From assembly GCF_022761015.1 (NCBI RefSeq), contig NZ_JAKWJQ010000004.1, positions 310,001 to 374,000 of the forward strand: a stretch of DNA of 64,000 nucleotides. The letters are read 5' to 3'. The DNA comes from Humibacter sp. RRB41 (GTDB lineage: Bacteria; Actinomycetota; Actinomycetes; Actinomycetales; Microbacteriaceae). The notes under the pieces are model-generated. The model ran no database searches. It worked only from the letters and a program-made list of their open reading frames with translations, and had not been told where the DNA came from. The translations under genes were made by a program, and so were the position numbers. This document shows, one piece after another, positions 22,567-24,662 of the stretch (its first letter is position 1; each line of letters starts with the position of its first letter).

Positions 22567-23571
22567 TCAGGCGTGCAGCACGGCGTTGAGCGTGATGCCC
22601 TTGCCGTTGCGCTGCAGCACCTCGACGGCACCGGTGAGCGAGTTGCGGCGGAACAGCAGGCCGGCCACGCCGGAGAGCTCGACGGCCTTGACGGTCTGCG
22701 GTCTGCCGTCTGCATCCGGCGCAGAGCCCATCAGCACGACCTTGGTGCCGGCCGTGACGTACAGCCCGGCCTCGACGACGCAGTCGTCGCCGATCGAGAT
22801 GCCGATGCCGCTGTTGGCACCGAGCAGCGAGCGCTCGCCGATGGCGATGCGCTGGGTTCCGCCTCCTGAGAGCGTGCCCATGATGGACGCCCCGCCGCCG
22901 ATGTCGGACCCGTCGCCGACCACGACGCCCTGTGAGATGCGACCCTCGACCATGGAGGAGCCCAGCGTGCCGGCGTTGTAGTTGACGAAGCCTTCGTGCA
23001 TCACCGTGGTGCCGGGGGCGAGGTGGGCGCCGAGGCGCACGCGCGAGGCATCGGCGATGCGCACCCGATCGGGCACGACGTAGTCGAGCAGGCGGGGGAA
23101 CTTGTCGATTCCGGAGGCCTGGATGCCCGCACGCTGCAGCGCCGGCCGCAGCCGCGCATAGTCGGCAGGATGCATCGGGCCCGCATTCGTCCACGCAACG
23201 ATCGGCAGATGGCCGAAGATGCCGTCGAGATTGATCGTGTTCGGCGCAACGAGAAGATGGGAGAGCAGATGGAGCCGCAGGTAGGCATCCGGAGTGCTTC
23301 GAACGGGTGCCGCGATCTCGATCTCGACAGAACGTGCGTCGATGCGCACGTTCCGCGTCGCGTCCTCGCCCGTCTGCGCCTCGAGTTCCGCCGGCACGAG
23401 CCAGGGGTCACGGCCGTGCAGCGCGCGACCGAGCCGTGGTTCGCCATACCAGGTGTCGAGTACGGTGCCGTCTCCGGCAACGGTGACGAGTCCATAGCCC
23501 CAGGCGTGCGTCGGCAGCTCAGCCCCTCTACCGGAGTCTGACAGGACGGCGTCGGGTTCGGCGGCGGGCAT
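22567..23571 (-). CDS. dapD: Tetrahydrodipicolinate N-succinyltransferase DapD, 334 aa
   Basis: Transfers succinyl from succinyl-CoA to tetrahydrodipicolinate in the lysine/meso-DAP pathway. The C-terminal half shows the left-handed beta-helix hexapeptide pattern ([20 protein letters not shown], then [20 protein letters not shown]). The N-terminal domain and the 330-residue length are those of the actinobacterial DapD type, distinct from the shorter proteobacterial enzyme. The start ATG has no ribosome-binding site; TAATCT lies six bases before it, so the mRNA is probably leaderless. dapE starts only 17 bases away in the other direction. Confidence 0.94.
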
Positions 23572-23576
23572 GCATC

Positions 23577-23583
23577 TAGATTA
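23577..23583. promoter_or_regulatory. Overlapping back-to-back -10 elements for dapD and dapE
   Basis: Seven bases (TAGATTA) contain TAGATT reading towards dapE and TAATCT reading towards dapD. Each hexamer ends exactly six bases before its start codon (GTG 23589, ATG 23571). One symmetric opening site would thus serve two leaderless genes. The -35 regions would lie inside the opposite coding sequences. Confidence 0.65.
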
Positions 23584-23588
23584 GTAGC

Positions 23589-24662
23589 GTGCCTCTGGAC
23601 CTGACGGCCGGCCCGGTCGAACTCACCCGCGTCATCTGCGACATCGAGTCCGTCTCGGGCGGCGAACAGCCGCTTGCGGATGCCATCGAGCACGCCGTAC
23701 GCGCCGTCGCCCACCTCGAGGTGACCAGGCTCGGCAACTGCGTCATCGCCAGCACGAACTTCGGTCGAGCGAAGCGGGTGGCGATCGCGGGCCACATCGA
23801 CACGGTGCCGGTCAACGACAACCTGCCGACCAGGTTCGAGACGCTCGGCGGCGTCGACTATCTGTGGGGGCGCGGGACCGTCGACATGAAGTCAGGGGTC
23901 GCCGTGCAGCTCGCGCTCGCCGCAGAACTCGACGACCCGCGCTACGACGTGACCTGGCTCTGGTACGACAACGAGGAGGTCTCCTCCGACCTGAACGGTC
24001 TGCGCAGGCTCGCCGACGAGCGCCCGGACCTGCTGGAAGCCGACTTCGCAGTGCTCGGCGAGCCCACGGGCGCCGAGGTCGAGGGCGGCTGCAACGGCAC
24101 GCTGCGGGTCGACGTGCGAACGACGGGGCTGCGGGCCCACGCGGCGAGGCCGTGGGTGGGGGACAACGCCATCCACAAGGCTGCGCCGATCCTGCAGACG
24201 CTGGCGACGTACGAGCCTCGCGAGGTCGACGTCGAGGGACTCACTTACCGCGAGGCACTGAACGCCGTGCTGATCAGGGGAGGGGTGGCGACCAATGTCA
24301 TTCCCGACGAGTGCGTGGTGCACGTCAACTACCGATTCGCTCCCTCTCGCTCGGGCGAGGAGGCGATCGAGCACCTCGAGGAGCTGTTCGGCGAGCACGA
24401 GGTGACCGTGGCAGACCTGGCAGAGGGTGCGCGTCCCGGCCTCGACACCGAGTTCGCGCAGGAGTTTCTGAGCGCGGTCGGAGCAACGGCCAAGCCCAAG
24501 TACGGCTGGACTGATGTCGCGCGGTTCGCCGCCCTCGGCATTCCGGCTGTCAACTACGGTCCCGGTGACGCCCTCAAGGCGCACGCGGACGACGAGCGCG
24601 TCGCGCTCGACGAGATCGTGGCCTGCGAGACCGGGCTGCGGCGTTGGCTCACGGCGCGGTGA
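23589..24662 (+). CDS. dapE: Succinyl-diaminopimelate desuccinylase DapE, 357 aa
   Basis: Di-zinc M20-family amidohydrolase that frees succinate from N-succinyl-LL-DAP. Metal ligands and catalytic residues are in place: H69 (GHIDTVPV), D99 (RGTVDMKSG), E129/E130 (YDNEEVSSD), a Glu in LGEPTGAEVEGG and a His near the end (KAHADDERV). The dimerisation domain sits between. The start is GTG with no ribosome-binding site and a -10-like TAGATT six bases upstream. It pairs divergently with dapD, as in other actinobacteria, and its stop overlaps the next start as GTGA. Confidence 0.95.
   Translation: MPLDLTAGPVELTRVICDIESVSGGEQPLADAIEHAVRAVAHLEVTRLGNCVIASTNFGRAKRVAIAGHIDTVPVNDNLPTRFETLGGVDYLWGRGTVDMKSGVAVQLALAAELDDPRYDVTWLWYDNEEVSSDLNGLRRLADERPDLLEADFAVLGEPTGAEVEGGCNGTLRVDVRTTGLRAHAARPWVGDNAIHKAAPILQTLATYEPREVDVEGLTYREALNAVLIRGGVATNVIPDECVVHVNYRFAPSRSGEEAIEHLEELFGEHEVTVADLAEGARPGLDTEFAQEFLSAVGATAKPKYGWTDVARFAALGIPAVNYGPGDALKAHADDERVALDEIVACETGLRRWLTAR

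Follow-up and report, generated by a model that had tools for sequence, protein, structure and literature searches.

A Candidate Bidirectional Promoter for Two Leaderless mRNAs between dapD and dapE in Humibacter and Other Microbacteriaceae

Introduction

The bidirectional promoters described in Escherichia coli and Salmonella by Warman, Grainger and colleagues are built from -10 elements that overlap on opposite strands. According to the relevant passages of their papers, the divergent transcription starts most often lie 18 bp apart (PMC12825309, PMC10268837), positions -7 and -11 of the two directions coincide reciprocally at the symmetric promoters (PMC10268837), and a T at -18 is most frequent in the Salmonella bidirectional promoters, those passages stating no requirement for it (PMC10268837). 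The word "leaderless" is absent from the main text of PMC12825309 and PMC10268837. Leaderless mRNAs have been characterized in Mycobacterium and Propionibacterium acnes, for which passages of the corresponding reports describe a TANNNT element that puts +1 on the ATG or GTG, together with the lack of both a -35 motif and a Shine-Dalgarno site (PMC3898074, PMC4633059, PMC3848588). In M. tuberculosis, TANNNT occurs upstream of 73% of the primary starts, without a -35 motif, and the divergent pair Rv1129c/Rv1130 is reported as leaderless on both sides (passages of PMC3898074); mycobacterial data presented in parts of PMC4633059 indicate that a 5'-terminal ATG or GTG on the mRNA suffices for translation.

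The present analysis deals with the divergent genes dapD and dapE of Humibacter sp. RRB41, located in a window of 64,000 nucleotides (the whole stretch of DNA that was analysed), in which a sequence-only reading had proposed a single symmetric -10 element serving two leaderless genes. The region between them resembles the E. coli and Salmonella promoters by the overlap of its -10 elements on opposite strands, its reciprocal -11A/-7T pairs and its predicted 18-bp spacing of starts, but differs from them in that its predicted starts are the first bases of the start codons, so that both mRNAs would be leaderless. It also resembles the leaderless genes of Mycobacterium and P. acnes, by a TANNNT that would put +1 on the ATG or GTG and by the absence of any -35 motif or Shine-Dalgarno site, whereas the passages of PMC3898074 on Rv1129c/Rv1130 do not state a common -10 element for that pair. 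Both ingredients, the bidirectional -10 and the leaderless mRNA, are already known, and their combination at dapD/dapE is a variant; the open-access papers searched yielded no report of a -10 element common to two leaderless genes or of such a layout at dapD/dapE, and none in which 5' ends had been mapped in this organism or another of the Microbacteriaceae. In a crp mutant of M. tuberculosis, dapD and dapE are mildly up together, as stated in a passage of PMC7938724, which fits a linked control of both genes in that species and is silent on the promoter considered here.

The dapD/dapE Intergenic Region of Humibacter sp. RRB41

The gene dapD, encoding the tetrahydrodipicolinate N-succinyltransferase, occupies positions 22567..23571 of the minus strand, with an ATG start codon at 23571-23569, and scores 478.5 bits with the NCBIfam model TIGR03535 (DapD_actino, cut-off 441.5). 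The gene dapE, encoding the succinyl-diaminopimelate desuccinylase, occupies positions 23589..24662 of the plus strand, with a GTG start codon at 23589-23591, and scores 499.7 bits with TIGR01900 (dapE-gram_pos, cut-off 304.2). The two genes diverge, and the distance of 17 bp given for their start codons in the sequence-only reading is exact, the gap consisting of positions 23572-23588 (GCATCTAGATTAGTAGC). A TAG stop codon lies in the dapE frame at 23577-23579, 12 bases 5' of the GTG, and a TAA stop codon in the dapD frame on the minus strand at 23583-23581, 12 bases 5' of the ATG; since these in-frame stops sit inside the two -10 hexamers, neither gene can start further upstream. At its other end, dapE finishes within the tetranucleotide GTGA (24659-24662), where its stop codon overlaps a GTG in frame with the next ORF, and dapE may therefore head an operon. 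This ORF, 422 aa long when counted from a TTG at 24644, looks by eye like a membrane protein.

The centre of the 17-bp gap is occupied by TAGATTA (23577..23583), which has the form TANNNTA on both strands. Towards dapE, the hexamer TAGATT (23577..23582, plus strand) ends six bases before the GTG, and towards dapD, the hexamer TAATCT (23578..23583, minus strand) ends six bases before the ATG; their five-base overlap and their positions are those originally claimed. TANNNT, the -10 form of actinobacterial housekeeping promoters, thus occurs in both directions, the -11A and -7T of the hexamers are reciprocally paired as the 18-bp class of bidirectional promoters requires, and ATCTAGAT is a perfect palindrome in the window. 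Because the -7T of one direction pairs with the -11A of the other, the locus offers a clean single-base test. In both genes an ATG or GTG follows about 6-7 bases after the -10 element, the arrangement of leaderless genes, and the -10 geometry predicts a transcription start at the A of the dapD ATG (23571, minus strand) and another at the G of the dapE GTG (23589, plus strand), 18 bp apart. Each of these positions is also the -18 base pair of the opposite promoter, 23571 for dapE and 23589 for dapD; a T is found there for dapE (T at 23571) but not for dapD, where a C stands opposite the G at 23589.

Taken by itself, the pattern CAY-N5-TANNNTA-N5-RTG is not significant and occurs at chance level, with 2 sites versus 1 for the reversed control in the whole genome to which the window belongs, and 109 versus 116 in 100 genomes of the family. 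Since the motif count alone does not beat chance, the locus was examined in relatives, and it is the conservation at dapD/dapE, rather than the bare pattern, that exceeds chance. No claim is made that the architecture is common, because the pattern shows no genome-wide enrichment. The shared form is present at dapD/dapE in 5/5 genomes of the genus Humibacter, whose other matches to the pattern, one each in 4/5 genomes, differ from one another in sequence.

Promoters of dapD and dapE in Related Actinobacteria

The comparison covered 241 loci including the window, reduced to 231 non-identical loci, 176 from the Microbacteriaceae and 55 from outside the family. They derive from 80 named loci, which are the best 80 of 510 candidates, from 100 family loci picked among the matches listed, closest first (dapD being found in 376/398 family genomes), and from 60 further loci picked among the matches listed (239/296 genomes of the class with dapD), 5 of which fall in the family; close relatives are over-represented by way of this selection. 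A divergent dapE was found in 167/176 family loci and in 32/55 loci outside the family, the available sequence of some of the others ending too soon.

With start codons chosen nearest to the conserved N-terminus and without reference to promoters, TANNNT precedes the family dapD by 6 bases in 116/176 loci and by 7 bases in 29/176 (145/176 together), against 2 loci in all at offsets of 0-5 bases and none at 8-11. The same peak occurs before dapE, at 6 bases in 92/167 family loci and at 7 bases in 33/167 (125/167 together), with none at offsets of 0-5 or 8-11. With as many as six candidate starts per gene and a spacing of 6-8 bases, TANNNT is found in 166/167 family loci for each of the two genes, and dapD genes beside which no dapE was found, treated with up to six starts, possess it at 6-8 bases in 9/9 family loci and 23/23 loci outside. 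Outside the family, the offsets of 6, 7 and 8 bases account for 13, 19 and 11 of 55 dapD and for 12, 4 and 5 of 32 dapE genes. Shine-Dalgarno-like motifs located 4-11 bases before the start were found in 0/29 shared family loci for dapD and likewise for dapE, and in the separate family loci in 1/135 for dapD and 7/135 for dapE. The in-frame stop at -12 recurs in 26/29 (dapD) and 28/29 (dapE) shared family loci. The offset peak and the absence of Shine-Dalgarno sites from the shared loci match, at the level of sequence, the data on mycobacterial leaderless genes. A TTG at -35 was found for neither gene in the shared (0/29) or separate (0/135) family loci, which says little because shifted control positions hold it just as seldom (1 and 0 of 29 shared, 2 and 0 of 135 separate loci); with no -35 TTG, low strength or dependence on an activator is possible for these promoters.

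Depending on the locus, the two -10 elements are either separate or shared. Among the 167 family loci with dapE, 135 are separate, 29 shared, one shows a two-base overlap and 2 are unassigned, the assignment favouring the shared form wherever the candidate starts permit; without this preference the picture is the same, the gap being 17 in 32/169 loci before removal of duplicates. The intergenic region of the separate loci extends from 26 to 1001 bp, with an individual -10 close before each start, whereas the gap of the shared loci is 17 bp in 28 and 18 bp in one. The family gaps peak at 17 bp; lengths of 19-22 and 24-25 bp do not occur, 23 bp occurs once, and from 26 bp onwards gaps are found again. 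Among the 32 loci with dapE that lie outside the family, 7 are shared, 17 separate and 8 unassigned, the shared gaps measuring 17, 17, 17, 17, 18, 18 and 20 bp and the elements reading TACCGTA or TACGGTA.

The sequence-only reading had named separate -10 elements in relatives as an observation that would speak against it. Such elements do occur, at 135/167 family loci, and the shared form nevertheless persists throughout Humibacter. Lying close before each start, the separate -10 elements in fact support leaderlessness, and they show that a locus may be in either of two states, the putative shared element being one of them and not a misreading.

Upstream of the -10, a T at -16, i.e., four bases further upstream, is found in 64/135 dapD and 47/135 dapE separate family promoters, as against 0/29 and 1/29 of the shared ones. 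This enriched T is possibly an upstream promoter element, and its near-absence from the shared family loci implies that sharing may cost promoter strength; the shared promoters outside the family, with -16 T in 4/7 for dapD and 0/7 for dapE, go against such a cost as far as dapD is concerned. The dapE start codon is GTG in 27/29 shared versus 14/135 separate family loci (Fisher 2e-18), an excess possibly due to shared ancestry. A test on independent pairs had only 4 supported pairs, too few for significance, and the separate family promoters show no enrichment of T at -18 (19 and 11 of 135); a tuning of promoters by start codons through -18 was accordingly rejected as a claim of its own.

A few loci deserve separate mention. 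In L055 (Microbacterium sp. Root53), where the gap is 23, two bases belong to both -10 elements, an arrangement close to the 23-bp class of bidirectional promoters. L013 (Cryobacterium ruanii), one of the two unassigned family loci, keeps TAATCTA and the GTG intact with dapE out of the GTG frame, unlike L143 and L154, a state attributable to an error of assembly or to a start that has changed; in the other, L078, no dapD start was found. The dapD/dapE intergenic region of L043 (Microbacterium marinilacus) contains very long runs of G and C, possibly an assembly artefact.

Interpretation of the Short Intergenic Region

The 17 bp between dapD and dapE very probably constitute one bidirectional promoter of the housekeeping sigma factor giving rise to two leaderless mRNAs, as judged from the geometry and its recurrence in relatives. 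RNA polymerase would load on TAGATTA in either orientation, reading TAGATT in one of them to start transcription from the G of the dapE GTG, and TAATCT in the opposite one to start from the A of the dapD ATG, and both messages, beginning at their start codon, would be translated as leaderless mRNAs. Since the -11A and -7T of both directions are the same base pairs, only one polymerase could be accommodated at a time. The proposal of one symmetric -10 for two leaderless genes is strengthened by the comparative evidence, transcription itself being what we infer from it. If true, hardly any region controlling two genes could be smaller, with 17 bp, no leader and one -10 element.

Three other readings have to be weighed. 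Only one of the genes might be leaderless from its hexamer, the other being transcribed with a leader from inside the opposite gene, so that the palindrome would be incidental. TANNNT is indeed short and common, and the count of the whole pattern in the genome of the window stands at chance, but both genes keep TANNNT at 6-7 bases in the separate-promoter loci too, and Shine-Dalgarno sites are missing before each gene in the shared family loci (0/29). In addition, every assigned locus whose gap measures 17-20 bp carries a central TANNNTA (36/36), including the A that completes the -10 of the second direction, an A which follows the -10 in only 11/152 (dapD) and 2/152 (dapE) of the separate loci; that the assigned loci with short gaps all have this A therefore points to a use in two directions, and this first alternative is considered unlikely. 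Still less credible is the view that the symmetric sequence represents the operator of a regulator rather than two -10 elements. The perfect palindrome of ATCTAGAT in the window would suit an operator, but other shared loci do not preserve it and show CTAGAG, CTAGGG and others in its place, which led to the rejection of this reading. The middle three bases of the shared family element vary (ATC, ACC, GCC, CTC, CCC, GGG), and only the TA...TA at -10 spacing, itself part of the definition of the shared form, is constant across the 28 shared family loci whose gap is 17 bp.

The layout might finally have arisen by chance and have no selective meaning, if short gaps tend by drift towards 17 bp and a -10 element is then seen in any AT-rich heptamer. 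That the pattern is no commoner than its reversed control in the 100 family genomes (109 versus 116) agrees with such a drift. Against it, the gaps of 17-18 bp form a separate mode (29 family loci), and the shared form persists over a group of about 20 loci and reappears in other families with TACCGTA and TACGGTA, so that pure chance seems a very improbable account of the locus.

Origin of the Shared Form

Gene trees were built from DapD plus the start of DapE, and contain many weak branches. At least 6 changes between shared and separate states are needed on a tree of 199 rows (189 with a state), and 7 on a tree of 68 rows, 3 of which are forced by well supported branches. On the 68-row set, a single clade for all 24 shared family rows is rejected (AU p = 0.017), and a single clade for the 20 rows with TAATCTA or TAACCTA is not (AU p = 0.70, the constrained tree being better), the groups having been named after the first tree was seen, though by promoter form. 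The shared-form group of about 20 loci forms one clade in one tree and is broken up in a quick tree. One origin for all the shared forms of the family is therefore weakly rejected, and the AU rejection, together with the different letters of the element in other families, suggests at least two origins. As an alternative, the shared state could be ancient and have been split repeatedly, since gene trees cannot tell gain from loss. An independent origin of the Humibacter and Leifsonia-side groups with TAATCTA/TAACCTA, which stand apart in two trees, was considered and dropped: the two groups are not counted as independent because one clade was not rejected.

A short route to sharing can be envisaged, since a TANNNT followed by A already holds a -10 on the opposite strand. 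A deletion that puts a start codon six bases beyond TANNNTA would create a second leaderless gene without the need for a new promoter. Five loci (L009, L017, L020, L057 and L162) have a 31-bp gap and a separate dapE promoter, and yet display TAACCTA or TAATCTA at dapD. With separate, two-base-overlap and fully shared forms among relatives, the locus provides a natural series for the emergence of bidirectional promoters, and the same series could show whether competition between polymerases sets the ratio of two enzymes of the same pathway.

Other Divergent Gene Pairs

Twenty sites with the same pattern were chosen by eye, 19 from the scan of 100 family genomes and one from the Humibacter genomes, and as they were picked, no rate of real pairs can be derived from them. 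Several of these sites separate two long divergent ORFs. The pair menB/menC occurs at L264, with models above cut-off, and at L265, with similar ORFs, and a pabB-like gene faces a class IV aminotransferase at L250, identified by models, and at L249, identified by a model and a similar ORF, the pabB score being below cut-off. A doubly leaderless shared geometry is predicted at these four loci, all in relatives whose genomes measure about 1.5 to 2.2 Mb. It can be proposed, quite tentatively and with the odds rather against it, that doubly leaderless shared promoters represent a recurrent actinobacterial device by which divergent genes, frequently from a single pathway, are locked together, for which dapD/dapE in at least two lineages, menB/menC and the pabB-like/aminotransferase pair would be examples. 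In such a device, a single base-pair change would alter both genes, polymerases would alternate, the start codons would double as -18 positions, and the choice between ATG and GTG could tune the partner gene.

One side is devoid of a long ORF at L251, L253, L254, L255, L259 and at L001, which lies in the genome of the window, and these sites look like chance occurrences. At L258, a prenyl synthase faces an SCO2097-family ORF whose start is doubtful, its match to the family beginning no earlier than residue 21. Other pairs consist of purD and an unnamed ORF (L257), an NRAMP-like and an MFS transporter (L260), a HAD hydrolase and a glutaredoxin-like ORF (L263), and TetR and an MFS transporter (L266). 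A weakly histidine-kinase-like gene diverges from an alpha/beta hydrolase gene at two sites, recognized by models at L248 and by similar ORFs at L247.
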